64,000 nt of DNA. Origin: Collimonas sp. PA-H2 (lineage in GTDB: Bacteria > Pseudomonadota > Gammaproteobacteria > Burkholderiales > Burkholderiaceae_D). The stretch spans positions 5,208,001 through 5,272,000 of the forward strand of contig NZ_PDBX01000001.1 of assembly GCF_002564105.1 (NCBI RefSeq), written 5' to 3'. Shown here one piece after another: positions 43,640 through 59,435 of this stretch. The notes under the pieces are model-generated. The model ran no database searches, was not told where the DNA came from, and was given only the letters and a program-made list of their open reading frames with translations. How positions within the stretch are numbered: the stretch's first letter is position 1; every line of letters starts with the position of its first letter. The translations under genes were made by a program, and so were the position numbers.

Positions 43640-43648
43640 CTACGCGAT

Positions 43649-43673: not shown

Positions 43674-43744
43674 GCTCTCTTTGCTGCAACCATAACTTCG
43701 CAAAATTATCACGCGAGACTTAACGCAACACTAATCCCCGGATT

Positions 43745-44602
43745 TCACAAACGCCGACCGTTAATGGGTTCGTTGTTCCCGGCGCGAATCGCCGCAATAT
43801 ACGCCTCGCCATTGCGCAGCGCGGCCGGCGTCGTATGCACTGAATAATTGCCGAGGATGAGATCGTGCTTGTGCGGGACCGCTGAGCCGATAACGAATTC
43901 GGCATCCGTCACGGCCTCGAATTCCACCGCGTCGCCAGACGCTTCGAAAACCGCTAAATTCCCATGCCGTAACTCGTCCGGAACCCTTGCCGTGCCCGAT
44001 GCCATAGCGACCCACAGGACTGTGTGGCCCGCCGGCGGCTGGTAGCGCCAGCGCTCGGCGGCTCGCATGCGCACGGCCAGGTAATTGATAGGGGATGGCG
44101 CCTGGATAGCGCTGGCCGCGGCGCCATGGCTGCCGAGGAGGACGCGCGCGGGGCCGTCCTCCTGTATCGCTTCGGATGCTTGATACATGCTTACAGTAGG
44201 ACCTAGTTCCAGCTCTGGCGGCAAAGCTATCCAGAGCTGGAATCCGCGCGTCCGTCCCGGCTTGTCCAGGCCACCGCCGTGCCACATGCCGCGTCCGGCC
44301 TGCATCCATTCGACGCCGCCGGCGGACAGCACACCCTTGCTGCCGTCCGGATCTATATAGCTGATGGCGCCTTCAATGACGTAAGTCAGCGTGGCGATTC
44401 CGGAATGCGGATGCAAACCTATGTCGAAGGGCTGGCCTTCGAAGTCAAACAGGTCGAGAAACACGAACGGCTTCATGATTTTACCCAGGTTGGACGGACT
44501 TGCCAGGCGCGTTATCGGGCCGTGTGTTCGCCCCCTGGTGAGCTGCGCAATGCGGCGCGCGGGGCTAGGTGCGACTTTGGGATAGGTGGCGGAGAGGGTC
44601 AT
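43745..44602 (-). CDS. pirin-family cupin protein
   Basis: Bicupin protein of 285 residues. The metal-binding His residues of the N-terminal cupin are H64 and H66 in GLHPHSG and H108 in GRGMWHGG; the Glu that completes the site in human pirin (as in the HSE triad) is replaced by Gly here. Some bacterial pirins oxidise quercetin, others modulate enzymes. The start at 44602 gives MTLSATYPKVAP; an upstream extension has no family pattern. It lies 23 nt behind the FMN reductase gene on the same strand, so the pair is an operon divergent from an HxlR regulator. Confidence 0.9.
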   Translation of the reverse strand: MTLSATYPKVAPSPARRIAQLTRGRTHGPITRLASPSNLGKIMKPFVFLDLFDFEGQPFDIGLHPHSGIATLTYVIEGAISYIDPDGSKGVLSAGGVEWMQAGRGMWHGGGLDKPGRTRGFQLWIALPPELELGPTVSMYQASEAIQEDGPARVLLGSHGAAASAIQAPSPINYLAVRMRAAERWRYQPPAGHTVLWVAMASGTARVPDELRHGNLAVFEASGDAVEFEAVTDAEFVIGSAVPHKHDLILGNYSVHTTPAALRNGEAYIAAIRAGNNEPINGRRL

Positions 44603-44625
44603 TTTTATCCTCGGAATAATGCGGT

Positions 44626-45207
44626 TTATGCGGCTGTACGCGCCGTTTTCAGGGCGGCAGTCCACCACAGCAGATCGTCGATCATTTTTGCCGCGGGTTC
44701 CGCAAGCTCGGCCAGCCCGGCGCCGACATCGCCGCCCTGGAAGTGCGCCCATAGCACAGCGGCTGGAATATGTACTGCCGAGCGCACCGGGGCGAGCTGC
44801 AGTTCGATGGCGGTTTCGCGCAATTGCTGGACGCTGCGGACGCCGGCGCTACCGCCATAACTCACGAATGCGGCAGCCTTGCGGTTCCACTCCGGATAAA
44901 CCCAGTCGATGGCGTTCTTGAGCACCGCCGAGGTGCCGTAGTTGTATTCAGGGGTGACGAAGACGAAGCCGTCTGACTGTGCGATCGCGGCGGTCCATTT
45001 TTGAACGATTTCATTGGAGTAGGGCGGTCGGCCGGGCATGGCGGGCGGCATGGGCTGGTCGAAGAAGGGCATGGGAAAGTCGCGCAGATCGAGCAGCCGG
45101 ACGTCGACGCCGTCACGCTGCCTGAGATGTTGTGCAATCCAGTTTGCCGGTTGGTCGGAAAAACGTCCTTCGCGCGTGCTGCCGATGATCACTGAAATGA
45201 TGCTCAT
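44626..45207 (-). CDS. NADPH-dependent FMN reductase-like flavodoxin-fold protein
   Basis: A 193-residue flavoprotein. The FMN phosphate loop is GSTREGRFSDQPANW (about 9-23), and the ring contact is PEYNYGTSAVLKNAIDW (about 85-101), both diagnostic of the chromate/quinone/FMN reductase family. The ATG at 45207 follows GGAG. It is first in an operon with pirin and is divergent from an HxlR regulator, an arrangement common for genes induced by quinones or aldehydes. Substrate not known. Confidence 0.92.
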   Translation of the reverse strand: MSIISVIIGSTREGRFSDQPANWIAQHLRQRDGVDVRLLDLRDFPMPFFDQPMPPAMPGRPPYSNEIVQKWTAAIAQSDGFVFVTPEYNYGTSAVLKNAIDWVYPEWNRKAAAFVSYGGSAGVRSVQQLRETAIELQLAPVRSAVHIPAAVLWAHFQGGDVGAGLAELAEPAAKMIDDLLWWTAALKTARTAA

Positions 45208-45311
45208 GTTTTGCTCCTGGCTGATGGTCGAGAAATAAAGATCCGCATACGCCACAGAGCGCCAATGAGGATCGTTCCGAGTAACAGCTTCACACCTGGC
45301 ATGGCATATAA

Positions 45312-45336
45312 TCTAGGTATCAAACTGTAACCTAGA
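45312..45336. promoter_or_regulatory. inverted repeat, candidate HxlR operator
   Basis: TCTAGGT (45312-45318) and ACCTAGA (45330-45336) are exact complements, 11 nt apart, in the divergent region between the FMN reductase and HxlR genes. A TATAAT box at 45307-45312 on the plus strand touches the left arm, so a bound regulator would block the hxlR-like promoter. Confidence 0.6.
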
Positions 45337-45379
45337 CTATTGTAGTGACCGGTGATAAGCTCCACAAGAAGGCACACAT

Positions 45380-45793
45380 TTGATACCGGAGCACATAGAA
45401 GTGACTGTCAAGCAACCCGACCACGCGAGCCCAGATTGCCGCGCCATCAGTTCCGTGCTGGCGCGTGTCGGCGATAAATGGAGCGTCCTTATCATCGTCT
45501 TGCTCGGCGACGGCTCAAAACGCTTCAATGAAATCAAGCGGGCCGTGGGTGGTATTTCGCAGAGAATGCTTACCTTGACGCTGCGCGGACTGGAGCGCGA
45601 CGGCCTGGTGACGCGAACCCAGTTTCCAACGATTCCGCCGCGCGTGGATTACGAGCTGACCGATCTCGGACGCTCCTTGTGGATCGCTGTCGAACCGCTT
45701 GGCGCCTGGGCGCAAGGGCATGTGGCGCACATCACCAAGGCGCGCGCCGAGTTCGACGAAAAGATCAACTATTTTGAAAAAAACATCACGTAG
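45380..45793 (+). CDS. HxlR-family transcriptional regulator
   Basis: Winged-helix regulator of 137 residues. Family marks are the N-terminal Cys (SPDCRAISSVL), GDKWSVLIIVLLGDGSKRFNEIKR, the recognition helix ISQRMLTLTLRGLERDGLV, and the wing VDYELTDLG. The single Cys21 could sense oxidants or electrophiles, as in related QorR/YodB proteins. The start is uncertain: TTG 45380 has AAGAAGG upstream, while GTG 45401 has GGAG. It is divergent from the FMN reductase-pirin operon, its likely target along with itself. Confidence 0.92.
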   Translation: MIPEHIEVTVKQPDHASPDCRAISSVLARVGDKWSVLIIVLLGDGSKRFNEIKRAVGGISQRMLTLTLRGLERDGLVTRTQFPTIPPRVDYELTDLGRSLWIAVEPLGAWAQGHVAHITKARAEFDEKINYFEKNIT

Positions 45794-46696
45794 CAGTGCG
45801 GGTTTTCCTGCATCCACTGGAAAATTTTAGCAAGATTCCTGGCCAAACATTGATTGATCCAATCTGAGCGATAGCTAGAATAAATTCGTGGGGCAGTATT
45901 GTTGGGTATACTCGCGCCCAGGGAAAAACAATATGGGATGCCCGCTTCACTGCGCAAATTCCGACTACGGCAGCGGACGAGTTGTGTCAAATAGCTGGAT
46001 TTTCTTCCGCCGCTTCTGACCTCGCCATGTTTCCACTCTCTCAAGTCAAGAATCTTCACGGAGACCGTCTCTGCTACACCAGCTTGCTATTCCATGTGGA
46101 CTTCGGGGAATTGGCGGGCTATTCCGCGTTGGTAAACGGTCCAGTTCCGCTGAAGGCAATTGAAGGCAGCCGGACCATCGGTCAAGCCAAATACCACAAC
46201 AGAAAAAAGGAGTCGCGAATAAAGTAATCCCCGACATTTACGCTGTGTAGCCTTGATGCCCGTGCCGCCCATGGTCTGTGGCTGTCGCCACAATCCTGTT
46301 CGGTAGCGCTAGGGCGCTCCTGTTTCCGTGGATCATAGTACTTTGGGATCGCGCCTGGATTTGCATGCGCGCCAGGGTTGTATGCGTTCGCGCATCGGGC
46401 AGGGGGAGATGCTATCTGGTCGACCAGCTTCAAGGTCGATTCACGCCTGGCAATAAATTTCGATTTATCGCCCGCAGCCGTGTAAGACGTTTTTCAAGAT
46501 TTTTCTTCTTCGCCAAGACACCAGCCGTTTCTTGGTCGAACGATGCTGCCCATTCGGACATGAATCAAGCAGCGATGATTGACGCCGACCTGGATTCGGC
46601 ATATCCGATGGCGCCCGATGTGGGAAGAGGTTCGCATAGGACGCGACGGCCAACGGTTGTAAATAATGAATTCTTTCTTAATCTTATGGAATAGTA
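45794..46696. other. 900-nt region without a supported gene
   Basis: Between the HxlR gene and the glycoside-hydrolase-like gene. Short open frames exist on both strands (for example 45982-46227 and 46278-46694), but they lack ribosome sites, family motifs and coding-like third positions. AT content rises just before 46697, where the promoter of the next gene probably lies. I see nothing else. Confidence 0.4.
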
Positions 46697-47611
46697 ATGT
46701 ATAAATTGAAATCTGTCATCATCATTTCAGGAGCCATGCTCGGGTTGGTTTTGCAAGGCGAGGCAAGCGCGTGGGGATCGCGGAATCCGCCGGCGCCGAC
46801 CACCACCACCACCACTACTACTGCAGTCAATTACGCCTATCCGCAAGTGTACGGCGTGACCATTGACGATATATCGGGATTGAGCGCCACTACCACCGCT
46901 CTGTCCAAGCTGGCGAAGAAGCCGACCACCCGCATTGTGTTCGACGAATGGCAGCCTGCATCCGGCTACCGTAGCGCGACTGTGGCGATCAACAAAGTCA
47001 GCTATGTGATGGGTGAGATCCTTGACTCGTCGGCGATGGATCAGTACACCGTTCAACAATACCTGAGCCGCGCAAGCGAATACATGGCAGCCCTTGGCGA
47101 CGTGGTGAATATCTGGGAAGTCGGCAACGAAATCAATGGGGAGTGGCTGGGCAATAACGCCGACGTGGTCGCCAAGATGAGCGGCGCCTACGATCTGGCC
47201 AAAGGGCAGGGCAGGACTGCCGCCCTGACGCTGTACTACAATCAGGACTGCTGGTCCAATCCAGCGAACGAGATGTTCACCTGGGCGAATGCGAATGTTC
47301 CGGCGCGCATGAAAAGCGGGCTTGACTATGTGCTGGTCAGCTATTACGAAGAGGACTGCAACGGCTTGGTTCCTGATTGGAATGCAGTGTTTACGAAGCT
47401 GTCAGCCATGTTTCCGAACTCCAAAGTCGGATTTGGCGAAACCGGCACTACCACTACCAACAAGGCCGCCTACCTGACGCGCTACTACACCTTGAAGCCA
47501 CCGGTAAAAAACTATATCGGCGGCTATTTCTGGTGGTATGGCAAAGAAGACTTGGTGCCGTACACGCAACCGCTGTGGTCGACATTGAATAGCGTGTTAT
47601 CGGGCAGTTGA
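46697..47611 (+). CDS. secreted clan GH-A-like glycoside hydrolase
   Basis: Exported protein of 304 residues. The signal peptide ends at GEASA (about 25), then a Thr-rich linker (eight Thr in a row, about 35-42) leads to a TIM-barrel-like domain. WEVGNEINGEW places E145 after Asn as the expected acid/base of clan GH-A, and VGFGETG places E248 as a nucleophile candidate; YFWWYGKE ends the barrel. It lacks a close match to any family I know by heart, so substrate is open. It converges with the YbcH-like gene of the nfr cluster (54 nt between stops). It may trim or release the polysaccharide made there; that is inference. Confidence 0.7.
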   Translation: MYKLKSVIIISGAMLGLVLQGEASAWGSRNPPAPTTTTTTTTAVNYAYPQVYGVTIDDISGLSATTTALSKLAKKPTTRIVFDEWQPASGYRSATVAINKVSYVMGEILDSSAMDQYTVQQYLSRASEYMAALGDVVNIWEVGNEINGEWLGNNADVVAKMSGAYDLAKGQGRTAALTLYYNQDCWSNPANEMFTWANANVPARMKSGLDYVLVSYYEEDCNGLVPDWNAVFTKLSAMFPNSKVGFGETGTTTTNKAAYLTRYYTLKPPVKNYIGGYFWWYGKEDLVPYTQPLWSTLNSVLSGS

Positions 47612-47665
47612 TAACAATCCGCTCGTGCTGCCTTGAAGGACGACCTCAGCTCTGATGTCGTTCGG

Positions 47666-48592
47666 CTAAGATCCGCCATTTTCTTTTGCGTTTTCAGGGC
47701 CGGCCAGCTCATTCACCAGGTCGCGGTTCAGGTAATGCGGGCCATCGAACAAGTAAACGGAAAAGCCGTCATAAGCGGCAAGTTGCGGCCTGAGTTCCGC
47801 AGCTGCGACCGGGCGGAATCCTCCTCCCTGGCGGGGACGAAACGCTTCGGCGATGATGCGTACCCGCTGCTTTCCAAAGCGGGCAGCCAGCACGTCGGCA
47901 TAATGCCGGGCTACGCTTGCCTCGCGCGCGTGGATGCCGACGCCATCCTGAAAGAAGATACCGACGTCTGGCGGCAGCCAGGAAGCAAGCCATTGCGACA
48001 GCGTATCGGCGCCGACATTGGCGCTGTCGTACACGCTGATCCACAGCGGCCGAGGCAAAGCTGCCAGCAGCGGACCAAGGCGGGCTGCGTCGGACCAGCT
48101 CGAATCGACCTCTAGCGGAAAGAACCAACCCGCCACGTGCAGCGGCGTCGGCAACGCGGCGAGCTTGCGCGACTCTTCGATTAGCGCGGCAGCATTGGCG
48201 CGGGCCGCCGTTTCGTCGAATTTGCCTGCCAAGCCGACAATCACTTTGTCCGCCCATGGTTCAGCCGCAATCCGTTTCCAGTCCGGCAAATGTGCCGCAG
48301 TGGGCCCCTCGGCGCCCGGCAGATAGCTGATGCCATCCACGGCCGTCCATTGGATGAGCAGTTCACGCGCCCCGAGCCTTTCCCAGTTTCCCATGGGATG
48401 CAGCGTCTGCTCATCGAGTTGCCACACGATTCCTTGCACCTGCGCAGGCGGATATTGCTTGAGCCTGGCTTGCAGCGGGTGCTGGCAGCTGCAAAGCGTT
48501 GCCAGCACCAGCATGCCTAACATGCAGCGCCGATTGACCCTGCGCAAAACTTTCCTCGACTTCACATTGCAAACGGCGAGGTGAATCTTCAT
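47666..48592 (-). CDS. YbcH-like lipoprotein, TIM-barrel glycosidase-like, of the nfr operon
   Basis: Envelope protein of 308 residues. A basic start and hydrophobic stretch end in TLCSC, a lipobox-like motif (Cys near 36). The body reads as a TIM barrel: RELLIQWTAVDGISY, DKVIVGLAGKFDE, HVAGWFFPLEVDSSW, LWISVYDSANVG and IFFQDGVGIHAR; several acidic residues at strand ends suit a glycosidase-type fold. Escherichia coli ybcH has the same place next to nfrA and nfrB, which guides the name; sequence identity is not measured. It is 40 nt behind nfrA and is the last gene of wecB-nfrB-nfrA-ybcH-like. Confidence 0.7.
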   Translation of the reverse strand: MKIHLAVCNVKSRKVLRRVNRRCMLGMLVLATLCSCQHPLQARLKQYPPAQVQGIVWQLDEQTLHPMGNWERLGARELLIQWTAVDGISYLPGAEGPTAAHLPDWKRIAAEPWADKVIVGLAGKFDETAARANAAALIEESRKLAALPTPLHVAGWFFPLEVDSSWSDAARLGPLLAALPRPLWISVYDSANVGADTLSQWLASWLPPDVGIFFQDGVGIHAREASVARHYADVLAARFGKQRVRIIAEAFRPRQGGGFRPVAAAELRPQLAAYDGFSVYLFDGPHYLNRDLVNELAGPENAKENGGS

Positions 48593-48632
48593 GGTTCGCT
48601 TCCTTGATCAGGGGCGCCGGCGCATCGCTTGC

Positions 48633-50843
48633 TCAATACGAGGCGCTGAGCCGGATGAACCAGCCTTCGGCCCGCTTGTCGCCGGCAATGCGCCAGCGGT
48701 ACTGCAGCGACAGGTCGGCATAGGAGCGCGGCGCGTTATAGTAATCCTGCCGGAACCAGTAGCGCATGCTGGTTCCGACGCCGCTTCCGAATGCCTTTTT
48801 GTCGTGCTCAATCAGGCTGGAATCGTAGTCTGCGCCCATCACAAGGTGCGGAAACAGGACCAAGGTCGAGCCGCTTGCGCCAAGTCGATAACTACGCCCC
48901 AATTGCCCTTCAAGGGTGGCGTAACTTTGCGGATGCTGGAAGTAATGCCCGGCTTCGGCATACACGTGCGTGCTCAGCCAGCTGGCTTGATCCGCGTGCA
49001 AATCCAGCCCTGCATCCGAGGAGAAACCCGCCCGGGCAAGCCAGTCGCCGCTGGTAGCGTTCCCCAGCGGCACCAGGCGTTCGAGCGCCAGTATGGCGTT
49101 GACCTCGCTGAACGGTTTCACGCGCGCGCCGAGCGCTGCCTGGGCCGTAGCGGATCCGGTCCGGACACCCGATCCGCCGTTTAAAGTTTCGTTGAGCCGG
49201 CCATAGATTTCCACCAGCGTCCCGTTCTGCAATCCAAACGGACGCCAGTATGCTTCAGCGGCGATGTCCGTGCCGTCGATCGTGCCGCCATGCGGCACCC
49301 CGACTCCTGCCGCGGCAACGCCTCTATCGCTCAGCGTTGCGCGTATCCCCCAGCGGCGCTCCAGGTCGGCAGTTTCGCGTCGCACATCGTAGACCTGCTG
49401 CGCATCCAGCGCAAGATGGCCTGCCTGGGCCGCGTCGACGGTCCGATTGAGGTAGCCGATTGCCTGTTCGTTGCGCCCCTGGCGGGCGGCGGTGTAGGCT
49501 GCGTCGTGGCGGGCGGCATCGGTGAGCGTGCCCTGCGTCTCCGCGCGGCTGAACAGATCGAGCGCATCCCGGTTATCTCCCGCCTGAAGGGCGAGATAGG
49601 CCAGCTCGAGTTCGGATCCTTTCTCCGGAGAGCGGGCTGCCGCTGCCAGGCGCTGGTGCGCATCTTCTTTGCGGCCGAGCCCGACCAGTGCCGCGATCTC
49701 GCTCCTGGCCGTTTTGTCCGGGGCGCTCAGCACGGCGACATAATCAGCCTGGGCAGCAACCGGGTTTCCGCGGCGTTTTCGGATATCGGCGCGCGCCAGC
49801 AGCATGTCGGCATCGTTTCCAAAGTCGGTCAAGGAAGTACTTGCAACTTGTTCCGCCTCGGCCAGCGATCCCTGCGCGCTCAGCGCTTGCACGTGCAAAC
49901 GGCGATAGCCAAGATCGTGGGGAGACAATTGGGTCGCTGCGCCGGCCTTGCTGCTTGCCAGCGCGTAGTTCTTGTCGGCGAAAGCACGATACGCCTGATC
50001 TGCAAGCAGGAACCCGGGATCCGCGGACGCCGTGCCGGGATTGATGTCGCACGCCGAGACCAGGTCCGGTCCTGAGGTGCAACTGACCAGCGGGAAGCTG
50101 AACACCGGGGCGGATCGGCCAAGCATCACGGTCGCCAGCGCACGCCGCGCCGCCGCTTCCTTGTCCTCGCCGCCTTGCAGTGGTTCGAGCAGGCGCAGCA
50201 CCCGTTGCGGATCGCCATTGGCCAAGGCGGCGTCGGCAGCCACCAGCCGGATGCCGCGCTGTGCAGCCGGAGCGGCGTTCGACAGGGCTTGATCGAAGTC
50301 TGCTTGCGCTGGTTCGACAGCGCCGCGTTGTTGGCGTATGGCGCCGCGCAGGAGCAGCGCTTCGCTCGATGGCGTTTCCGGCTTGATCGTGTCGGAGGCT
50401 GCCTGCTCTGCTTGCTCCAGTTCCCCGTCCGCGACCAGCGCATTGATCAGGGCGATGTGAAATGCGGGCAGGGCGGGCAGATAATCGACAGCCTTGCGCG
50501 CCTGTTCTACAGCCTGCGCAAAGTCGCGGCGCTCCAGCGCCTGGTAAGACGCCGCGGAGGCGTCGAAGGCAAGCTGCGCCTGCACCGTGCGACGCGCCAG
50601 CTCAGCCTTTTCCAGCAGGTCGCGAAGGCGCGCGACATCCGGCCGCAAGCGGATCGCCTGGCGCGCCTTTGCCGCCGCGATATCATATTCTCCTTGTGCA
50701 AAAGCCTTGTAGGCCTCATCGGCAATCCGATATGCCTGGCCGCTAAGCGGCCGCTCCGCGGCGCCGGCGCTAGTTGCCGCAAGCAAGGCGACGGCAACAA
50801 GACTGCTGCCCAGGAAATGGAGCGAAACCGGGTATTTTCTCAT
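48633..50843 (-). CDS. nfrA: NfrA-like outer-membrane protein with TPR-rich periplasmic region
   Basis: Outer-membrane component of 736 residues, shorter than Escherichia coli NfrA (about 990). The signal peptide ends at SAGA. TPR-like helices fill most of residues 35-480 (for example AYKAFAQGEYDIAAAKARQAIRL). The C-terminal 230 residues form a barrel-like domain of the NfrA type, ending RYWFRQDYYNAPRSYADLSL and finally RLSASY. NfrA is the outer-membrane receptor of phage N4 and the export part of the nfr glycan system. Its ATG overlaps the nfrB stop by ATGA. TPR plus barrel parallels PgaA and AlgK/AlgE in other exopolysaccharide exporters. Confidence 0.88.
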   Translation of the reverse strand: MRKYPVSLHFLGSSLVAVALLAATSAGAAERPLSGQAYRIADEAYKAFAQGEYDIAAAKARQAIRLRPDVARLRDLLEKAELARRTVQAQLAFDASAASYQALERRDFAQAVEQARKAVDYLPALPAFHIALINALVADGELEQAEQAASDTIKPETPSSEALLLRGAIRQQRGAVEPAQADFDQALSNAAPAAQRGIRLVAADAALANGDPQRVLRLLEPLQGGEDKEAAARRALATVMLGRSAPVFSFPLVSCTSGPDLVSACDINPGTASADPGFLLADQAYRAFADKNYALASSKAGAATQLSPHDLGYRRLHVQALSAQGSLAEAEQVASTSLTDFGNDADMLLARADIRKRRGNPVAAQADYVAVLSAPDKTARSEIAALVGLGRKEDAHQRLAAAARSPEKGSELELAYLALQAGDNRDALDLFSRAETQGTLTDAARHDAAYTAARQGRNEQAIGYLNRTVDAAQAGHLALDAQQVYDVRRETADLERRWGIRATLSDRGVAAAGVGVPHGGTIDGTDIAAEAYWRPFGLQNGTLVEIYGRLNETLNGGSGVRTGSATAQAALGARVKPFSEVNAILALERLVPLGNATSGDWLARAGFSSDAGLDLHADQASWLSTHVYAEAGHYFQHPQSYATLEGQLGRSYRLGASGSTLVLFPHLVMGADYDSSLIEHDKKAFGSGVGTSMRYWFRQDYYNAPRSYADLSLQYRWRIAGDKRAEGWFIRLSASY

Positions 50844-52963
50844 GCCACTCCCAATGCTAATCTGAGCAAGGCCATTTGCTGCTGAACAGTTTCTTCGATA
50901 ATGTCGCGCGACACCAGCCCGCGACCGACGAGATAGTCGCCAATGCGTCCATGTTGCGGAGAGACATAGTGCTGCATCGCCTGTTCCAGCGCTTCTCGCG
51001 TGATTTTTCCATTCTGGATCAGCAGTTCGCCAAGGAGCGAGGCACCTTTAAATTGTCTTTTGATGGATTTTGCATGCATTTCGGCCAAGGCCAGGCGTAA
51101 TCCGGAGACTATTTCGCTGTCCCGCGCGATATGCTGTACGGGCTGCGTGCCAAAGGCCGAGGCAAGCTCCCTGAGCGCATCTTCGGCAAGTGGCTTGCCG
51201 ACTGCGACAATCGGCTTGCCATTGGCGTCCTGCCCGATCGGCATCGCGCCCAGCCTTACACACATATCAAGCGATACCGGGGCGGGCAAGGAGGCCGCGA
51301 TCCTGATTTCGGCGCGCGACAGATCGGACTGGAAGGCGATTGCTTCGGCCAGGGTTTCTTCGTCGATATAACCGCGGGACACTAATATATGCCCAAGGGG
51401 AAGGTGTATCTCCGCGTGTTCCTGCAATCCCTTTTTCATGTCGTCCTCGGTGATCGCTTGCCAGGAAACCAGCAGTTCGCCGAGGCGTTGGCGTGTGCGT
51501 ATGAGCCGGTCGTCGGAGGGGAAGTCGTGCATGGTCTTGTCCCATGCCAGGCGCTTCCCGAACAGCAGGTGCGCCAGGAACAATTTCCAGGCCCGAGCCA
51601 CCGCCACGAAGTTGATGAAATTGGCAACCACCATGCGCGGCGCGGAAAGCAATCCATGTACAGGTCCGTACAAGCGGCTGACAAAATAGACGCGCTGGGA
51701 GGCGCGCAGCGCCAGTGCGGTCAGGTTGGCGTAGAGCACATAATGGAGCCATGTTTGCGATTCCAGCAGCGAGCCGGAGGCGAGCTTCCAGAATCCGAAA
51801 TGGTCGGCGATCCAGAACGGCAGGAACTGCAACAGCAACAGATAGGCAGGAACGCTGACGAGGGCGGTGACGATGCCTTTGCGGTCCCGAAACAACAGGT
51901 ACTTGTTTGCAAGCGAGCCGCGCCAGCCGATTTGCGCCCATCCTTGCAGGCTGATGCCCAATACCCAGCGCGTTTTTTGCCGGTAGGCCGTCTTGAAGTG
52001 GTCGGGAAAATACTCGCGCACGCATAAGGGCATCTTGAGCGTGACCTGGCGCTCTTTTCCGAAACCGAACCATGTCTTGCGGTTGACCGAAAAGTGGACC
52101 GGAAAGCGGGCAAATATGGATGTCATCCCTATGCTCGCCAGACGCGCGCCAATGTCATAGTCTTCGGTCAGGGTGTCGGTGTTGAAAGGCTGGTTTTGAT
52201 TGTCGTTGGCCAGCGCCTGCAGGGCGCGCCGCGAAAAACAGGTGCCGACGCCAGCCGAAGGCACCATGCCGCTGATGCTTTCCCTGACAACGATGTCCTT
52301 GGCATGGGACTCCGCGAACTCATCCATATAGGTTCCTGCCACCAACTCGGACCATTTGCGTTCGAGCGACATCACGGGAAGCTGGATCATGTCCTTGCGC
52401 GGCAGCAGGTAATTGAAGAATTTGAGTTCGAGAGAATGCAGCACATCTTCGCTATCGTGAAGAATGACGCCGGCAAATTGATAACCGCGCTTCTTTTCAT
52501 GCAGGAAAATCGCGTTGATGATCCAATTCAGGCAGTCCGCCTTGCAGGTAGGGCCGGCATGGGGCACTTCGACCCGATGCAATTGCTTGTAGCGACGACG
52601 CATCCGCTCTACCTCTGCTATGGTGCGTGCGTCATTGACATAGGTTCCGACGAAAACCACATAGTTGTGGTAATTGAGAACCGTCACCATGTTTTCGATC
52701 ATTTGGGCGATCACATCGTACTCTAGCCACGCCGGCACCATGATCGCAAGCGGCTGCTCGGCGTGTTCCTCCAGTTGCCGCTCCGTGACCGGCCGATAGG
52801 TGCGGGTTCTGGTCAGCTGGCGGTAAGCCTGGCGGGTCCAGTACCAGGCGTCGACAAACAGGTCGTCGGCCGCCGACACCAGAAACAATAGCGCGACAAC
52901 GCCGGTGGTCAGTTCCAGCAACGCATAGTAATCGGCAAGGAAATGTAGCCAGTAAGTTGTCAT
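50840..52963 (-). CDS. nfrB: NfrB-like inner-membrane glycosyltransferase with two MshEN-like domains
   Basis: Processive-type family 2 glycosyltransferase of 707 residues. Helices near 13-33 anchor the N terminus. The catalytic part (about 70-335) has HDSED (169-173), TEDYD (266-270) with the catalytic Asp, and QKTRW (329-333). More helices lie at about 366-425. The C terminus holds two MshEN-like segments: RLGELLV...LPLGHILVSRGYI (about 490-545) and LLGELLIQNGKI...RIGDYLVGRGLV (about 641-696). MshEN domains bind c-di-GMP in MshE, and NfrB of Escherichia coli is reported to be c-di-GMP-controlled. It should polymerise an N-acetylhexosamine glycan from UDP-sugar, with UDP-ManNAc from the wecB product next door. 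Confidence 0.92.
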   Translation of the reverse strand: MTTYWLHFLADYYALLELTTGVVALLFLVSAADDLFVDAWYWTRQAYRQLTRTRTYRPVTERQLEEHAEQPLAIMVPAWLEYDVIAQMIENMVTVLNYHNYVVFVGTYVNDARTIAEVERMRRRYKQLHRVEVPHAGPTCKADCLNWIINAIFLHEKKRGYQFAGVILHDSEDVLHSLELKFFNYLLPRKDMIQLPVMSLERKWSELVAGTYMDEFAESHAKDIVVRESISGMVPSAGVGTCFSRRALQALANDNQNQPFNTDTLTEDYDIGARLASIGMTSIFARFPVHFSVNRKTWFGFGKERQVTLKMPLCVREYFPDHFKTAYRQKTRWVLGISLQGWAQIGWRGSLANKYLLFRDRKGIVTALVSVPAYLLLLQFLPFWIADHFGFWKLASGSLLESQTWLHYVLYANLTALALRASQRVYFVSRLYGPVHGLLSAPRMVVANFINFVAVARAWKLFLAHLLFGKRLAWDKTMHDFPSDDRLIRTRQRLGELLVSWQAITEDDMKKGLQEHAEIHLPLGHILVSRGYIDEETLAEAIAFQSDLSRAEIRIAASLPAPVSLDMCVRLGAMPIGQDANGKPIVAVGKPLAEDALRELASAFGTQPVQHIARDSEIVSGLRLALAEMHAKSIKRQFKGASLLGELLIQNGKITREALEQAMQHYVSPQHGRIGDYLVGRGLVSRDIIEETVQQQMALLRLALGVA

Positions 52964-53026
52964 GGCGCCCGGAAAAATCCATGTAAGAAGACTTTACAAT
53001 CGAACCAAACCCCAGGACATGGGAAG

Positions 53027-54217
53027 CTAGATAACCACGGGATCCTCGCGACCATCTGCCGCGAACTGATGCACTGCTTCCGGCTTCGCGGCGAATTCCG
53101 ATACGGTCCGGTCAAGCAGGGCTGCCACGATGCGCTGCGAGGCGTAGCCGTCGCCGTAGGGATTGTGGTGTTGGGCAAACGATCTCCATGCGGCATCGTC
53201 GTCATACAGCCGGTGGACAGCCGTAACGATGCGCTCCGCCTCGGTGCCCACCAGTTCGACCGTGCCTGCGAGAACCGCCTCCGGTCTTTCGGTGACGTCG
53301 CGCATCACCAGCACCGGCTTGCCCAGGGACGGCGCTTCTTCCTGGACGCCGCCGGAGTCGGTGAGAACCACATGCGCGCGCTGCATCAAACGTACGAACG
53401 AGAGGTAATCCAGCGGCGCAATCAGATGTACGTTGGGCAGATGGGACAGGGCGGCCGATACCGGTTGCTGCACATTGGGATTGAGATGCACCGGATAGAC
53501 GATCTCAATATCCGCCCGCGCAGACAGCTCGGCCAGCGCCGTGCAGATATTCTGAAAGCCGGGTCCGAAATTTTCCCTCCGGTGGCCGGTAACCAGCAGC
53601 ATTTTGCGGCCCGATTGGAGGAAGGGGAATTGCGCATCGAGCCTGCTGCGCAATTCGTCGTCAAGCGAAATCCGCGTACTGGAAGCCATCAAGGCATCGA
53701 TCACCGTATTGCCGGTAATATAGACCTTGCCGGCCAGATTTTCCCTGCGCAGGTTTTGTTTCGATCCTTCAGTCGGTGCAAACAGCAAGTCGCTGACGAC
53801 GTCGACCACCCTGCGGTTCATCTCTTCAGGCCAGGGTTGTTTCAAATTACCGGTACGCAATCCGGCCTCGACATGCGCAACCGGAATCCCGCGATGGAAG
53901 GCGGCGACGGCGCCCGCCATTGCCGTTGTCGTGTCTCCATGCACCAGCACGCGATCGGGCTTTACTTGCTCGATCAAGGGATCGAGCGCCGCGAAAAGGC
54001 GGGAACTCAGGCCATTCAGCGTCTGGTTCGGCAGCATCAGGTCCAGGTCGAAATCGGTCTGCAATTCGAAAACGTCCATTACCTGGCGCAGCATGCTGCG
54101 GTGCTGCCCGGTGCTGCAGACAAGGGACTCGATTTCTGCTTCCAATGCGAGACTCTTGAGTACAGGCGCCATCTTGATGGCTTCCGGGCGGGTGCCGAAT
54201 ATGGAGAGAATTTTCAT
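53027..54217 (-). CDS. wecB: UDP-N-acetylglucosamine 2-epimerase (non-hydrolysing)
   Basis: Cytosolic enzyme of 396 residues that interconverts UDP-GlcNAc and UDP-ManNAc. The conserved acidic residues D95 (HGDTTT), E117 (HVEAGLRT) and E131 (PEEMNR) sit at exactly the positions known for the Escherichia coli enzyme. FGTRPEAIKMAPV at the start and TDSGGVQEEAPSLGKPVLV later are the nucleotide-binding signatures. AAGGGGGA precedes the ATG at 54217. It is first in the wecB-nfrB-nfrA-ybcH-like run, so its UDP-ManNAc product is probably the NfrB substrate. No wecC dehydrogenase is adjacent, so the sugar likely enters as ManNAc. Confidence 0.95.
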   Translation of the reverse strand: MKILSIFGTRPEAIKMAPVLKSLALEAEIESLVCSTGQHRSMLRQVMDVFELQTDFDLDLMLPNQTLNGLSSRLFAALDPLIEQVKPDRVLVHGDTTTAMAGAVAAFHRGIPVAHVEAGLRTGNLKQPWPEEMNRRVVDVVSDLLFAPTEGSKQNLRRENLAGKVYITGNTVIDALMASSTRISLDDELRSRLDAQFPFLQSGRKMLLVTGHRRENFGPGFQNICTALAELSARADIEIVYPVHLNPNVQQPVSAALSHLPNVHLIAPLDYLSFVRLMQRAHVVLTDSGGVQEEAPSLGKPVLVMRDVTERPEAVLAGTVELVGTEAERIVTAVHRLYDDDAAWRSFAQHHNPYGDGYASQRIVAALLDRTVSEFAAKPEAVHQFAADGREDPVVI

Positions 54218-54396
54218 AAGTCCCCCTTATGAATCAGACATGCAATGTTGCCATTGCCGCGAGAATGACTGTAATTATTTGTTATTCATTGTTACGCTCA
54301 AGTCAGTTTATAGGATGAATGTAATTTCTGCCAATAGAAATCTTTATAACAAGCGCTGCTTGTATAAATGCTGTGCTTTAACTTAATAAAAATTGG

Positions 54397-54987
54397 CTAG
54401 CGGCCGGCATGATGCGGCTTGCCGGGTCGCGCCGCAGGTGGGATTGCAGGCGCCGCAGGTAGAGCCGCCGGCTCCCCAGGTGGCGTCGCGGGCAGAAGCG
54501 CCGGCGCTGCAGGCAGAGCGGCTGACGCTATCTCCGGTTTGGTCTCGGCATGCTCAGGCAGGATCAGCCGTTTGAGAATGCCGCCTTCCAATAACAGCAC
54601 ATAGGTCTTACGCACTTCCTTGACGCTAGTCCCCCGCTGCACTTCCTGCCCAACCCGGACCACTTGCGCGGGCTGGCCCTCTGCGCTCAGGATAGCCACG
54701 CTTTCCGCGGCATTTTGTGCTACCACCACGCCCGTCAGCCGGTAGTTGCTGGCAACCACACTTCCATGATCGCCAAACAATCCGGCCGCCTGGGAAATAT
54801 CAATCTGTGGCGCCTCTGCTTGCGGCGGTGGCGCAAGCGCAGGTAGCGGCGGCTCGACCAGCTTCATCCGCCAGTATGCGGCGCAGGCACATAACAGCAT
54901 GAATAAAGCCAGACTGGCGAGCGCGGGCAGACGCGCGCCATGGCGGCGCATTTTTTTGCCGATAATTCTGTTGAAATAGCCGCCCAT
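54397..54987 (-). CDS. orphan GspC-like inner-membrane protein (type II secretion homology region)
   Basis: A 196-residue protein with one membrane helix (about 20-40) and a periplasmic homology region of the GspC/PulC type (about 68-145): LFG at 70-71, SNYRLTGVVVAQ, AILSAEG, VVRVGQEVQRGTSVKEV and VLLLEGGILKRLILP. In T2SS this region binds the GspD secretin. The tail (about 150-196) is Ala/Pro-rich with loose repeats and ends in basic residues. Start chosen at ATG 54987 with AGGAAC upstream; an extension to 55134 is unlike the family. No other T2SS gene is nearby. It lies 179 nt upstream of wecB on the same strand. Confidence 0.75.
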   Translation of the reverse strand: MGGYFNRIIGKKMRRHGARLPALASLALFMLLCACAAYWRMKLVEPPLPALAPPPQAEAPQIDISQAAGLFGDHGSVVASNYRLTGVVVAQNAAESVAILSAEGQPAQVVRVGQEVQRGTSVKEVRKTYVLLLEGGILKRLILPEHAETKPEIASAALPAAPALLPATPPGEPAALPAAPAIPPAARPGKPHHAGR

Positions 54988-55647
54988 GTTCCTATTGTTC
55001 TCTGGTCCAGCCAACCAATTCTCAACCTGCGGTAGTGGCATGGCGCCAGACTTGGAATTATTGGAAGCCGGCTTCCATGTTAAAAATGGCGCGCTATATT
55101 TTCCAGTCGGCATTCTATTTGGATGCAGCAACAAGCCCGCTTTCTCGTCATCAATTTGTGAAACTCAGGCGTGCAGGTGTTGCCGTCATGACGAGCATAC
55201 TCCAAATTTTATCTTGGAAAAAAGCAGGTCTGTTACTCGGCGGAAAACAACAATATCGGCCACGATTTTTGTGCAAGATGTTGCATGGACTGCTAGCTAA
55301 AATAGCACCTTCGCCTATACTTCAAGCTAACATTTTGTAGCATGAAGACGAACGTTCCCATAAGAAAGAATCAGCGCGGTTTTTACCTCATCCCGAGATT
55401 GCATCGTAGAAAGACGGATCATGATTGCTGTCAAAAAATCCCTCGGATGCAGGTCGATTGCTAGCCGTTCCTCGTCATTTTATCTGCACTGTCTTGACGC
55501 CCGCGGAATCAAACAGCGATGTCGCGCGGGACAGTCAGCAATATCCCGCATTCAAAATTTGCATTGCTAGTGTCCGGATGCGATATCCCAGTCCGATTTA
55601 AAGGGGAGGGCTGGCGCTCAAGTACTCATCTTCAATGGGAGAAAATC
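54988..55647. promoter_or_regulatory. 660-nt divergent intergenic region of the exopolysaccharide island
   Basis: Separates the GspC-like gene (-) from the small His-rich gene (+). It is AT-richer than its neighbours and holds no convincing gene; short frames on the plus strand near 54986-55340 look random. Promoters for both directions must lie here. I see no strong sigma-70 consensus or terminator, only AT-rich stretches such as 55220-55340. Confidence 0.4.
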
Positions 55648-55908
55648 ATGAAAGCCACACATAAAATGCGGTCGCATATTCTCGCGGCTGGCATCGGCGC
55701 GGTCATTGGTTTTGCAGCATCAGCCAATGCCGGCGATGTCAACATTGCGCCCCCTCGGAAACCAGCTTTTGACACGGTGATCACGCCGGGCCAGGTGCCT
55801 GGCAAAGACATACAGCACGGTCATCATCATAAGGGCGACGTCAAGAAAAATAAGTCCAGAGATGATGAAGAGCTTAAACAAACCGGAAAAGCAGGTGGCC
55901 AATCATGA
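55648..55908 (+). CDS. small exported His/Lys-rich protein coupled to the DUF2334 gene
   Basis: An 86-residue protein with a signal peptide (ending SANA) and a short mature chain: DVNIAPPRKPAFDTVI, a HGHHHKG cluster that may bind metal, then a charged tail (KKNKSRDDEELKQ). I do not recognise the family. ATG 55648 follows TGGGAG. Its stop overlaps the next start by ATGA, so the two proteins are made together, and it may deliver metal or hold the deacetylase-like partner; that is inference. Confidence 0.7.
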   Translation: MKATHKMRSHILAAGIGAVIGFAASANAGDVNIAPPRKPAFDTVITPGQVPGKDIQHGHHHKGDVKKNKSRDDEELKQTGKAGGQS

Positions 55909-57563
55909 AAAAGATTGCGACTATTTTTGTGCTGATCGCCGGACTGTTTATGCTTAGCCCGTCGCCGGCAAGTGCGCAGGTAGTGACTACTCCGATAAAA
56001 GTATTGATTGTGTACGATGCCCCTTCCCCCGATCAGTATGAGAAGCTGGGATTTGCCTACGCCATCATGCTGCGCAATCTGATGGGACATTTCAACAGCA
56101 CCGTTGATCTGGTGTCGATACAAAACTATAGCGCCGGAAAAATCGAGTCCTATCAGGCCACTTTCTATCTGGGATCGTATTACAACAATCCGATTCCGGC
56201 TGTATTTCTCAACGATGTCAATGCCACGCAGAAAACCGTCGTCTGGTTCAAATACAACCTGTGGCAGTTCGCATGGAACACGGCGTACAACTTCAATACC
56301 CATTACGGATTCAGCTTTAGCGGCTTACAGGGATTGAATGCGCCGCCCAGTTCGAACAACCCGACACCGGGTTTCTTCGATACCGTCTCCTACAAGGGTA
56401 AGTCGATGGTGAAGTACTATGCCTACGATCCTGCGAGCAACACCGTGAGCGCCGATCCCGACGTCGGGATCACGCAGATCGTTGATGCGACCAAGGCACA
56501 GACACTGGTAACGATTACAAACAGCAAGACTTCCGTGCAGGCGCCGTATATTATCCGCTCCGGCAATTTCTGGTACTTCGCCGACTTGCCATTGTCATAC
56601 ATCGGCCCGCGGGACCGCTATCTGGTCCTGTGCGATATCTTGCATGACATCTTCGCTGACAATCAGCCGGTAAGCCATAAAGCTCTGGTACGGCTGGAAG
56701 ATGTCGATGCGTTGGTGGATTACGGCACAATGAAAACGCTGTCGGACTATCTGGTGGGCAAACACATTCCATTTTCGATTGCCACCATCCCGCATTACAT
56801 GGACCCGCTAGGTGTATACAACGGCGGGGTTGCGGAAGAAGTGCCGCTGTCGCAGGCCGGGACGCTCAAGAGATCGTTAAATTACGCGCTGGCGCGAGGC
56901 GGGAAAGTTCTAATGCATGGATATACCCATCAATACGATTCGATGCGGAACAAGAATACAGGGGTCAGCGCCGATGATTTTGAATTCTGGAATGCCGTGG
57001 CGAATACCCCGGTGGCCGAAGATTCGACTGCATGGGCATTGGGACGCCTCCAGGCGGGAAAGGCAGAATTCCAGAATAACGGTTACACGCCATTTGCCTG
57101 GGAGACCCCGCACTACCAGTCATCGCCGTTGACCACGAAGGCTATACCGCAGGTATTCAAGACAACCTATCAGCGCGCCGTGTATTACACCTCCGACACC
57201 CCTAACTTCACCTTGGCCCAGGGCAAGGATTTTGCAGTTGGACAGTTTTTCCCCTACGTCATCAAGCAAGACTACTACGGCCAGTGGATTGTGCCGGAAA
57301 ATCTGGGGGACATGGAATACAACATCAGCACTATCGATCCGTATTCAAACGTGGTCTACACCTGGCATGATCTTTATCTGAATGCCCAATATGCTTTGGT
57401 GGTAAGGGATGGATTTGCATCTTTCTTCTTTCATCCATTTTGGCTGGAGTCGTCGCTGGCGCCGCTGGTCACCACCGGATTCAGCGATTTCCAAAGCATA
57501 GTTCAGGGTATTACAGGATTGGGCTACACCTGGACCGATGCCAGTACACTCGGACATCCATAA
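55905..57563 (+). CDS. secreted DUF2334 polysaccharide-deacetylase-like protein
   Basis: Exported protein of 552 residues. The signal peptide ends SPASA (about 24). The N-terminal 230 residues look like a flavodoxin- or glutaminase-like a/b domain (KVLIVYDAPSPDQYEKLGFAYA), common before DUF2334. The DUF2334 part (about 260-410) has RLEDVDA with D267/D269, IATIPHYMDP, HGYTH (H338, H342) and AWETPHY (399-404), the metal and catalytic motifs of NodB-like deacetylases. It should act on a polysaccharide in the periplasm or outside, perhaps removing acetyls from the NfrB product, as PgaB does for poly-GlcNAc. It is divergent from the GspC-like/wecB/nfr genes and ends at a strong hairpin. Confidence 0.85.
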   Translation: MKKIATIFVLIAGLFMLSPSPASAQVVTTPIKVLIVYDAPSPDQYEKLGFAYAIMLRNLMGHFNSTVDLVSIQNYSAGKIESYQATFYLGSYYNNPIPAVFLNDVNATQKTVVWFKYNLWQFAWNTAYNFNTHYGFSFSGLQGLNAPPSSNNPTPGFFDTVSYKGKSMVKYYAYDPASNTVSADPDVGITQIVDATKAQTLVTITNSKTSVQAPYIIRSGNFWYFADLPLSYIGPRDRYLVLCDILHDIFADNQPVSHKALVRLEDVDALVDYGTMKTLSDYLVGKHIPFSIATIPHYMDPLGVYNGGVAEEVPLSQAGTLKRSLNYALARGGKVLMHGYTHQYDSMRNKNTGVSADDFEFWNAVANTPVAEDSTAWALGRLQAGKAEFQNNGYTPFAWETPHYQSSPLTTKAIPQVFKTTYQRAVYYTSDTPNFTLAQGKDFAVGQFFPYVIKQDYYGQWIVPENLGDMEYNISTIDPYSNVVYTWHDLYLNAQYALVVRDGFASFFFHPFWLESSLAPLVTTGFSDFQSIVQGITGLGYTWTDASTLGHP

Positions 57564-57574
57564 GCCATGCATCT

Positions 57575-57607
57575 GCCCGCCAAAGGAGCCAGCTTCCTTT
57601 GGCGGGC
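57575..57607 (+). terminator. strong hairpin after the DUF2334 gene
   Basis: GCCCGCCAAAGGA (57575-57587) pairs perfectly over 13 bp with TCCTTTGGCGGGC (57595-57607) around a 7-nt loop, 11 nt after the stop codon at 57563. No T-run follows on the plus strand, so it may need Rho or act as an mRNA end-stabiliser. Confidence 0.7.
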
Positions 57608-57639
57608 TGCGATATGGCAACTAGACAGAATGTAGTGAC

Positions 57640-57836
57640 CTGCCGAACCATGGGGACGCCTTGGTTCGCGACCATCCGTGTCGACGGCATCAGGGCAGGT
57701 CGATCCCGGATTTTTTTAAGCCAGTCCGGTTCCATCTCCAGCTTGCCGATTTCACTGTAAAGCCGTTCAGCTTGGCGCTGCTCGCTCACCGGCTGCGGGC
57801 CTCGCTTGCCTTCAAACCAAGGCTTGTCAACTTGCC
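57640..57836 (-). pseudogene. decayed IS3-family transposase fragment
   Basis: On the minus strand the frame reads FEGKRGPQPVSEQRQAERLY and then SEIGKLEMEPDWLKK, which is the end of OrfA of IS3-type elements (family pattern GKRGPKP, ERLYAEIGKLKMELDWLKKK). Further down, ALMPSTRMVANQGVPMVRQ resembles the start of OrfB (NQGAPMVRQC). The rest of both frames, and any terminal repeats, are missing. It lies between the exopolysaccharide island and the mipA-type operon, so it may mark an old insertion boundary. Confidence 0.7.
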
Positions 57837-57947
57837 TGGCCCAGTCAAAATATTTCAGCTTGCAAGACGCCAGTAAGTAAGCGGTAAGAGCTTATGGTGG
57901 AACATGCCTCCCAGCAGCAGATCATTCAATCCTCTTGTGGAGTCAAC

Positions 57948-58739
57948 ATGCACCATTTCAAGTTTACCTGCCGACTGGCCTCGGCAGCGCTGATCGGAGC
58001 GACGCTTAGCGCCGCGGCAAGCATGAGTCATGCTGATACGGCATTGACCGAGGAGCCGCATGCCGCCGACGCTTCCCAATGGGGGCTGGGCATCGGCCTC
58101 GGTTCTGAAAGCAGGCCCTACCGCGGCGTCAGCAATCATGTTTCCGTTCTGCCGCTGGTATTGTATGAAAACCGCTGGGTCCATTTTTTTGGCAATACGC
58201 TTGATGTCAAGCTGGGGTCGGTCGACCAGTTCAGCTTCACATTGCGTGCCAAATATGCATTGAACGATGGCTACAAGGGCAGCGATTCCAATGCACTGCG
58301 GGGCATGGACGAACGTAAGGGCAGCGCCTGGGGCGGGGTGGCCGGCAGCTGGGATAATCCCTATGCGAAGCTGTCGCTGGAATGGCTGACCGCCGGCAGC
58401 ACCAAGGGCAATACGGTCAAGCTTGGCGTCGAGCACTCGTTTGCGATGGCAGGGTTGCAGCTGACGCCGCACCTGAGCACGACCTGGATGGACAGCAAGT
58501 ATGTCAATTATTACTACGGCGTCAAAGCCAGCGAAGCTACCGCCGAGCGGGCGGCTTATACTGGCAAATCGACCGCTAATATTGAATTTGGCGTGCGCGC
58601 GGACTATCCGCTGACCCGCAATCAAATGATCACGCTGGACGTCGGCGACCTGCAGCGCGGCAGCGGCGTCAAGGACAGTCCGATAGTCGACAAGTCGTCG
58701 GCGGCAACTGTGCGGGTGGGCTATCTTTATAAATTTTAA
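57948..58739 (+). CDS. MipA/OmpV-family outer-membrane protein
   Basis: Outer-membrane barrel protein of 263 residues. A signal peptide ends MSHA (about 29). The barrel opens WGLGIGLGSESRPYRGVSNHVSVLP, the family hallmark, and ends in VGYLYKF with a C-terminal Phe suited to BAM insertion. MipA scaffolds murein enzymes in Escherichia coli, but many homologues are simply stress- or cation-regulated porin-like proteins. The ATG at 57948 is chosen because GGAG lies 6 nt upstream and a signal peptide follows; a frame from 57894 does not start with one. Seven nt before the response regulator, so it is probably in one operon with the two-component system. Confidence 0.9.
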   Translation: MHHFKFTCRLASAALIGATLSAAASMSHADTALTEEPHAADASQWGLGIGLGSESRPYRGVSNHVSVLPLVLYENRWVHFFGNTLDVKLGSVDQFSFTLRAKYALNDGYKGSDSNALRGMDERKGSAWGGVAGSWDNPYAKLSLEWLTAGSTKGNTVKLGVEHSFAMAGLQLTPHLSTTWMDSKYVNYYYGVKASEATAERAAYTGKSTANIEFGVRADYPLTRNQMITLDVGDLQRGSGVKDSPIVDKSSAATVRVGYLYKF

Positions 58740-58745
58740 GCAAGA

Positions 58746-59435
58746 ATGATGAATCGAATCGGCCTGCTGGAAGACCACGAGCGCATGGCGCAGTTGATAC
58801 GGCAGGCTATGGCCGGGGTCGGCGTGGAAGTCGATATCTATGGCCGTATCGACCATGCGGTCGACGGCTTTGCCCGCATCCCGTATGCGGCGCTGGTGAT
58901 CGACCGCGGCTTGCCGGATGGCGACGGCCTGGACCTGCTGCGCAAGCTGCGCGCCAAGGGCGTGCTGACTCCGTGCCTGATGCTGACCGCGCTTGACGCC
59001 CTGCACGACCGGGTGGCGGGACTGGAAGCTGGCGCCGACGACTATCTGCCCAAGCCGTTTTCAATGGAAGAACTGGTCGCCAGGGTGCGCGCCCTGATGC
59101 GGCGTCCGCCGCAATTGCAAAGCCTGGTCCCGGCCTATCTTGGCTTGCAGGTGTCGCCGGAATTGAGCAGCATGCGCAACGGCGAGGATTCGGTGTCGCT
59201 GGCGCCCTCGGAGCTGCAGGTGATGCTGAGCCTGGTCCGGGCCGGCGGCCAGCCGGTACGCCGGAGCGCCCTGGAAATGGCCGCCTGGGGCGTCGGCGAC
59301 GCGGTCACCCCGAATGCGCTGGATGTGGCTTTGCACCGCCTGCGGCGCAAGCTGCAGGCTATCGACTCTGTCGTCGAAATCGCCAACGTCAGGGCTTATG
59401 GTTTTGCATTGCAGGAAATGGACGATGCCGTATAG
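58746..59435 (+). CDS. OmpR-type response regulator
   Basis: A 229-residue regulator. Receiver acidic pair E9/D10 (LLEDHE), phosphoacceptor D53 (LVIDRGLPDGDG), switch Thr in MLTALDA, and Lys in LPKPFS. The winged helix (about 135-225) includes LAPSELQVMLSLVRAGGQPV and LDVALHRLRRKLQ. It follows the mipA-like gene by 6 nt and overlaps the kinase start by 11 nt. Two ATG codons in a row at 58746 and 58749 leave the exact start open. The mipA-like gene is its most likely target. Confidence 0.94.
   Translation: MMNRIGLLEDHERMAQLIRQAMAGVGVEVDIYGRIDHAVDGFARIPYAALVIDRGLPDGDGLDLLRKLRAKGVLTPCLMLTALDALHDRVAGLEAGADDYLPKPFSMEELVARVRALMRRPPQLQSLVPAYLGLQVSPELSSMRNGEDSVSLAPSELQVMLSLVRAGGQPVRRSALEMAAWGVGDAVTPNALDVALHRLRRKLQAIDSVVEIANVRAYGFALQEMDDAV

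Follow-up and report, generated by a model that had tools for sequence, protein, structure and literature searches.

Do genes that lie beside a polysaccharide synthesis locus belong to it, and if so, what would they do to its product? The question is raised by a locus of Collimonas sp. PA-H2 that occupies positions 46697-57563 of a 64,000-nucleotide stretch of the genome (the window; contig NZ_PDBX01000001.1, positions 5,208,001 to 5,272,000). It consists of a core of wecB, nfrB, nfrA and a ybcH-like gene, together with a GspC-like gene, a gene for a DUF2334 protein preceded by a short partner gene, and a gene for a protein of the glycoside hydrolase clan GH-A type (GH-A). A preliminary description had joined all of them in one exopolysaccharide island. 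The eight genes are present at the coordinates claimed, and the family names hold against Pfam and NCBIfam profiles, clearly for wecB, nfrB, nfrA and DUF2334 and more weakly for ybcH and GspC. Here we report that DUF2334, its partner and GH-A form a module linked to nfr. The reading we favor, with some reserve, is that the locus encodes a synthase-dependent exopolysaccharide machine of the NfrBA/NGR type, controlled by cyclic di-GMP (c-di-GMP), with a recurring accessory module that would de-N-acetylate and cut the polymer.

Linkage of DUF2334, its partner and GH-A to nfr

The DUF2334 protein (55905-57563, plus strand; 552 aa, secreted; PF10096, 150 bits) is a NodB-like deacetylase candidate. 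Its gene overlaps by 4 bases that of the short secreted partner (55648-55908, plus strand; 86 aa), which has no family match, carries a PPxRP...PG motif and a His cluster, and was traced in other loci with a motif profile. GH-A (46697-47611, plus strand; 304 aa) is also secreted, and has no Pfam or NCBIfam match. The core is transcribed from the minus strand, in the order GspC-like, wecB, nfrB, nfrA, ybcH-like. The added genes do not form one operon with it, since the partner and DUF2334 are divergent and GH-A is convergent. Only the GspC-like gene (54397-54987, minus strand), an orphan with an inner-membrane anchor and an HR domain (T2SSC, 38.1 bits), shares the strand of the core among the added genes, 179 bp before wecB. 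The starts at 54987 and 55648 were chosen from the sequence and homologues; the list of open reading frames (ORFs) gives longer frames.

Co-occurrence was examined in whole genomes, with E-value limits of 1e-60 for nfrB, 1e-40 for DUF2334 and 1e-20 for GH-A in the family and order samples; distant copies may be missed because of these limits. Within the genus, full-length nfrB, DUF2334, GH-A and the nfr-type GspC gene all occur in the same four of 15 Collimonas genomes (seven pass the E-value for nfrB, three of them merely through an MshEN-like stretch). In the family sample nfrB is found in 22 of 294 genomes and DUF2334 in five, namely four Collimonas (the window's own included) and one Noviherbaspirillum. 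All five are nfrB-positive (hypergeometric 1.5e-6 for DUF2334 within the nfrB-positives, kinship being ignored). In the order sample nfrB is found in 16 of 399 genomes, and DUF2334 and GH-A each in two. These are the identical two genomes, the window's own and one of another family; both are nfrB-positive (hypergeometric 0.0015 for DUF2334 against nfrB), and in both DUF2334 and GH-A adjoin nfr. The gene order of the second is DUF2334, wecB, nfrB, nfrA, ybcH and then a convergent GH-A.

The same linkage appears when the search starts from DUF2334. The best 80 of 142 named DUF2334 loci were taken, and their ORFs were matched to the window proteins and to some proteins of other loci (the relatives' query alignment, A1, held one nfr-locus protein, L048). 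Of the 80 loci, 58 have one or more core genes within the fetched stretch, and 55 have nfrB or nfrA once overlapping frames are dropped (56 with such frames kept); in 51 of these 55, DUF2334 is less than 600 bp from the nearest of wecB, nfrB and nfrA. The loci represent 63 genomes in all. A linked copy is present in 58 of these, and among the other five, OK412 has an nfr contig that ends inside a DUF2334 gene. GH-A is present in 19 of the 80 loci, and 16 match one of two cyclase/EAL query proteins.

The position of DUF2334 varies widely. It stands before wecB in Trinickia, Paraburkholderia, Halopseudomonas and Thiomicrorhabdus, after wecB and before a BcsB-like gene in Ramlibacter, between nfrB and nfrA in Noviherbaspirillum, Variovorax and Azoarcus, after nfrA in Comamonas and before GH-A in Ralstonia, and it is divergent in Collimonas and Microbulbifer. 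On a Comamonadaceae plasmid the order is wecB, a glycosyltransferase family 2 (GT2) gene, a short gene, DUF2334, a tetratricopeptide repeat (TPR) protein and DUF4434. A Burkholderia plasmid has DUF2334 with no nfr gene nearby, only cyclase genes. A distant parallel is found on a Streptomyces plasmid, where a DUF2334 protein (34% identical) is encoded beside genes annotated as GT2, wecB and a family 16 hydrolase.

The GspC-like gene is found in 2 of 20 nfr loci of the family sample, both from Collimonas, in none of 15 loci of the order sample and in one of the 80 DUF2334 loci. Since it was seen near nfr only in Collimonas, it was rejected as a general component. In OK242 it forms a pair with GH-A well inside a separate contig, and DUF2334 has kept its place with wecB-nfrBA-ybcH. 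At a different place in the PA-H2 genome a second GspC, 55% identical, is encoded together with GspD and GspE; among ten window proteins scanned there is no other Gsp gene, neither for the secretin nor for the ATPase with which the GspC of a type II system is encoded. From the pairing in OK242, the GspC-like protein might hand GH-A over to the type II system. The proposal that the added genes belong to the nfr system is therefore kept for DUF2334, the short partner and GH-A, on the grounds of co-occurrence, reverse linkage and, for the partner, the recurrence of its motif, and abandoned for the GspC-like gene. Conservation beside nfr in relatives, chosen beforehand as a point on which the proposal could fail, separated the genes in the same way.

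The nfr core and the candidate enzymes

The wecB-nfrB-nfrA-ybcH genes are the known NfrBA/NGR c-di-GMP-controlled exopolysaccharide system. NfrB (50840-52963, minus strand; 707 aa) is a GT2 synthase with a c-di-GMP-binding MshEN domain (NF012033, 1064 bits, above its cut-off; the equivalog model NF008411 gives 632 bits, under its cut-off of 1170). It has the DxD/TED/QxxRW motifs of NfrB-type GT2 enzymes as HDSED (169), TED (266) and QKTRW (329). Its C-terminal MshEN part contains the repeats RLGELL (493) and LLGELL (643) and matches PF05157 (37.2 bits) and, in two stretches, NF053729; c-di-GMP binding is thus predicted. NfrA (48633-50843, minus strand; 736 aa; PF13283 NfrA_C, 171 bits) combines TPRs with an outer-membrane export barrel and is the sole NfrA_C match in the genome. 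Its gene overlaps nfrB by 4 bases and stands in one run with the ybcH-like gene (47666-48592, minus strand; 308 aa), whose product scores 22.6 bits against DUF4434, under the cut-off of 30. Adjoining nfrB is wecB (53027-54217, minus strand; TIGR00236, 465 bits against a cut-off of 210), which encodes a UDP-N-acetylglucosamine 2-epimerase expected, from its family, to supply UDP-N-acetylmannosamine (UDP-ManNAc). None of the eight genes encodes a diguanylate cyclase; the genome beyond the unit was not searched for one.

The earlier assignment of these four genes to an N4-receptor glycan pathway is correct, and is backed by the family profiles and by the known E. coli nfrBA-ybcH. In the passages of PMC8669469 and PMC8669472 that describe it, the E. 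coli operon encodes a synthase activated by c-di-GMP and an exporter, whose product is a surface glycan that depends on ManNAc and acts as the N4 receptor; the presence of ManNAc in the NfrB product is deduced there from genetics. The window shares with it the NfrB GT2 with MshEN, the TPR-barrel NfrA, YbcH, the WecB dependence and the order B-A-YbcH (Junkermeier and Hengge 2021, PMC8669469; Sellner et al. 2021, PMC8669472). It differs in having wecB inside the locus, as reported for other species (PMC8669469), in containing no diguanylate cyclase gene, and in adding DUF2334 with its short partner and a GH-A enzyme, to which Collimonas adds an orphan GspC. According to PMC8669469, nfrB is linked to wecB, to diguanylate cyclase genes and, in certain strains, to a cluster of alginate-type acetyltransferase genes. 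Thus the core and its wecB are ordinary, and nfr loci that carry extra modifiers have, in principle, been seen before. The text of that paper on nfr neighbors does not name DUF2334 or GH-A, while its Fig. 7B may show more, and our literature searches on NfrB, DUF2334 and deacetylases found no prior description of an nfr-linked module of DUF2334/partner and GH-A.

Three residues of DUF2334, D266, H338 and H342, are invariant in 86 of 86 distinct copies (residue counts use sets without twice-fetched genes; n = 22 for GH-A, 86 for DUF2334, and 56). They are putative metal ligands, placed like the Asp-His-His triad of NodB. The deacetylase model NF053788 matches 12 of 14 DUF2334 members, below its cut-off (17.2 bits for the window copy against 280).

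A profile of the partner was built from ten upstream motifs (PPxRP, then PG; 13 seed loci were chosen, of which 10 gave the motif). It finds the motif upstream of 49 of 74 DUF2334 genes, six of the 80 loci being too short upstream of DUF2334, and upstream of 36 of 61 when all 13 seed loci are left out. In the same upstream-only search it finds the motif in 0 of 395 control draws, which were made five per locus from the same loci and so are not independent. A wider search, from -700 to +450 around the DUF2334 start, gives 55 of 74, 42 of 61 non-seed and 0 of 385 control draws. The motif lies at the frame's own start in 5 of 80 DUF2334 frames, and in P0013 the partner is fused to the front of DUF2334. 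On these counts and this fusion, what had been described as a His-rich partner is a recurring companion of DUF2334.

Members of clan GH-A have their catalytic glutamates in strands 4 and 7. The predicted structure of the GH-A protein is a barrel of this clan, with the putative catalytic E145 in strand 139-146, after Asn144, and E248 in strand 243-250; E145 is kept in 22 of 22 copies and E248 in 21 of 21. The top ten Foldseek ranks for the model are Gas2/Gel4 beta-1,3-glucan transferases. The family is without a convincing Pfam match, and a search of its sequence against solved structures gave none up to E 1 (the DUF2334 and GH-A searches yielded one unrelated weak row). YbcH is predicted to fold into a TIM barrel that lies close to BT_0435 and further from the hydrolase domain of PgaB, which it also resembles; in the search of its sequence against solved structures the match is 4h41 (E 0.039). 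Many YbcH homologues have a lipobox-like start.

A possible pathway and its alternatives

The preferred reading draws on the gene identities, the linkage, the co-occurrence, the conserved putative catalytic residues and the predicted folds of GH-A and YbcH, and from these we infer the substrate, the reactions and their order, and the role of the partner. WecB would make UDP-ManNAc, which NfrB, activated by c-di-GMP at its MshEN domain, would polymerize across the inner membrane. The secreted DUF2334 protein, aided by its short His-containing partner, would strip N-acetyl groups off the emerging chain. The YbcH barrel may then handle or cut the chain in the periplasm, NfrA would export it, and the secreted GH-A enzyme could cut the exported polymer, for release or recycling. 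Judged from the genes, a system of synthesis, modification and release is plausible.

The logic is probably, by analogy, that of the poly-N-acetylglucosamine (PNAG) machine, Pga, except that the sugar precursor would differ and each of PgaB's two activities would have a gene to itself. In PMC5933820, as far as its account of pgaABCD goes, PgaB unites a deacetylase and a GH153 hydrolase in one protein, whereas DUF2334 and YbcH in the window are on separate genes and the precursor would be UDP-ManNAc. The locus is not itself a member of the Pga type, NfrB scoring 18 bits against a PgaC cut-off of 422. A second comparison is ydaJKLMN of B. subtilis, which the parts of PMC13274460 and PMC5422440 devoted to it present as a c-di-GMP-dependent operon: exopolysaccharide requires ydaLMN, the product of ydaJ is a putative glycosyl hydrolase, and that of ydaK binds c-di-GMP as a receptor. 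The likeness lies in the c-di-GMP-dependent synthesis, the putative hydrolase and YdaL, which is taken to be a DUF2334 protein because JGI uses that product name for many of the DUF2334 proteins studied here. The B. subtilis system differs in its separate receptor YdaK, in having neither an outer-membrane exporter nor wecB among the five genes, and in lectin data that indicate galactose and/or N-acetylgalactosamine (PMC5422440 and PMC13274460, same parts).

A more specific proposal, which we put forward tentatively, is that a widespread nfr subtype makes a partly de-N-acetylated, hence cationic, ManNAc-based polymer resembling PNAG by means of a different synthase, with DUF2334 and the PPxRP-motif partner as the deacetylase and an uncatalogued clan GH-A family as a dedicated depolymerase. 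De-N-acetylation of the polymer, if it occurs, would add one more to the known cationic biofilm polysaccharides and alter the surface that phages encounter. The linkage suggests a function for DUF2334 and for the GH-A family. The candidate deacetylase and depolymerase encoded at such loci could also serve as tools to cut, label and identify the NfrB polymer.

Several observations weigh against a deacetylating and cutting module. DUF2334 is absent, at the thresholds used, from most nfr-positive genomes (17 of 22 in the family sample and 14 of 16 in the order sample), so that the module is optional and the core can do without it. Conversely, 22 of the 80 DUF2334 loci have no core gene in the fetched stretch, 18 of them in genomes with a linked copy (OK412 counted). 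PF01522 has no match in 14 DUF2334 members at E 1, and no curated deacetylase model matches above its cut-off. The sequence gives no meaningful match to solved structures up to E 1, and the DUF2334 profile does not match four deacetylase-like proteins of the same genome, these profiles being too thin. The partner motif is absent upstream of 25 of 74 DUF2334 genes. As for the hydrolases, YbcH fits BT_0435 clearly better than PgaB, whose scores are tied with those of other barrels. GH-A is convergent on the core, and a third glutamate of the family, E218, invariant in alignment A2, is found in only 12 of 22 nfr-locus copies.

The deacetylase-model match of DUF2334 is sub-threshold, and the protein might act on the nfr polymer in another way, by removing O-acetyl groups or other esters or by scaffolding a chain that stays neutral. 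Genes of the MBOAT/AlgX type in other nfr loci (L038, L039, L047) make O-acetylated variants possible. None of the 80 DUF2334 loci, however, has a match to these proteins at E 1e-10, which leaves no obvious ester there for DUF2334 to remove, and the invariant D266, H338 and H342 are placed like the metal triad of NodB; we regard this alternative as unlikely. Even less probable, in our view, is that GH-A and YbcH degrade foreign glycans such as fungal walls, with the orphan GspC helping GH-A secretion through a type II system. Collimonas feeds on fungi, the closest Foldseek neighbors of GH-A act on beta-1,3-glucan, GspC-like and GH-A genes lie together away from nfr in OK242, and a GspC with GspD and GspE exists elsewhere in the genome. 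Yet Ralstonia, Trinickia, Paraburkholderia and others have GH-A in DUF2334 loci that hold no GspC-like gene, GH-A is confined in the order sample to genomes positive for both DUF2334 and nfrB, and the nfr operon of E. coli includes ybcH.

A further alternative is an ordinary nfr locus with unrelated neighbors, in which DUF2334 and GH-A are passengers that serve another glycan. Their divergent and convergent orientation in the window fits this, as do their G+C contents (51.6% for DUF2334 and 55.0% for GH-A, under the 60.8% of the core) and the 22 DUF2334 copies found away from nfr. It is nevertheless hard to reconcile with genomes from two families of the order in which both genes adjoin nfr, and with a reverse linkage in 58 of 80 loci that persists through many gene orders, DUF2334 often lying inside the core run. 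We consider it highly improbable.

Other nfr loci and the surroundings of the unit

Second copies of DUF2334 away from nfr are found in L088, L089, L093, L152 and L108. Four such loci of Trinickia were scanned and have an iron alcohol dehydrogenase or a PLD-like gene nearby; L108 has a lactonase-like propeller. Tandem DUF2334 genes occur within nfr loci, three in L102 (10001-15367) and two in L137 (9929-13552). OK412 has two further copies (L076 and L077), each cut by a contig end and 94% alike.

In many nfr loci of other genera (L034, L038, L179, L097 and others) a BcsB-like gene of about 745 aa, with a weak PF03170 match in L034, stands beside nfrB, as though the Nfr synthase had acquired a periplasmic subunit of the cellulose-synthase type. 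The family loci had hinted that this gene and DUF2334 are mutually exclusive, which is refuted by 13 of the 80 DUF2334 loci, of the Ramlibacter type, that hold both. The MBOAT and AlgX-type acetyltransferase genes were identified by Pfam in L038 (14344-15996) and L039 (14559-17020) and by blastp in L047. Loci of this kind (Simplicispira, in the portion of PMC8669469 concerned; L038, L039) resemble the window in joining the nfr core to a polymer-modifying add-on, and differ in having O-acetylation genes in place of the DUF2334/GH-A module. The two modifications may exclude each other, given the lack of overlap in the 80 loci.

Collimonas strains share a stretch between about 45,780 and about 57,620 (45780..57623, by blastn of other-strain loci against the window), which takes in about 0.9 kb upstream of the GH-A gene. 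The window matches Collimonas OK607, and OK412 up to its contig end, within this stretch and not beyond. The region at 45935-46696 (plus strand, about 760 bp) contains no convincing gene in a four-strain alignment and no Rfam match, and its identity across the four strains is 81-88%, against 91-94% for the coding part. No riboswitch, for c-di-GMP or another ligand, was found by Rfam up to E 1 across 43,000-60,000, and promoter and terminator scans of the locus did no better on the real sequence than on shuffles. An empty site beside mipA could not be demonstrated: in three other strains mipA-RR-HK is collinear, but what these strains have upstream of mipA does not match the window. Just before 45935-46696 the window lacks about 200 bp present in three other Collimonas strains. 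About 4 kb from the unit, at 31177-41679, lies a gene for a trimeric autotransporter adhesin of 3500 aa, with an ESPR signal, 17 YadA stalk stretches and 54-bp tandem repeats.

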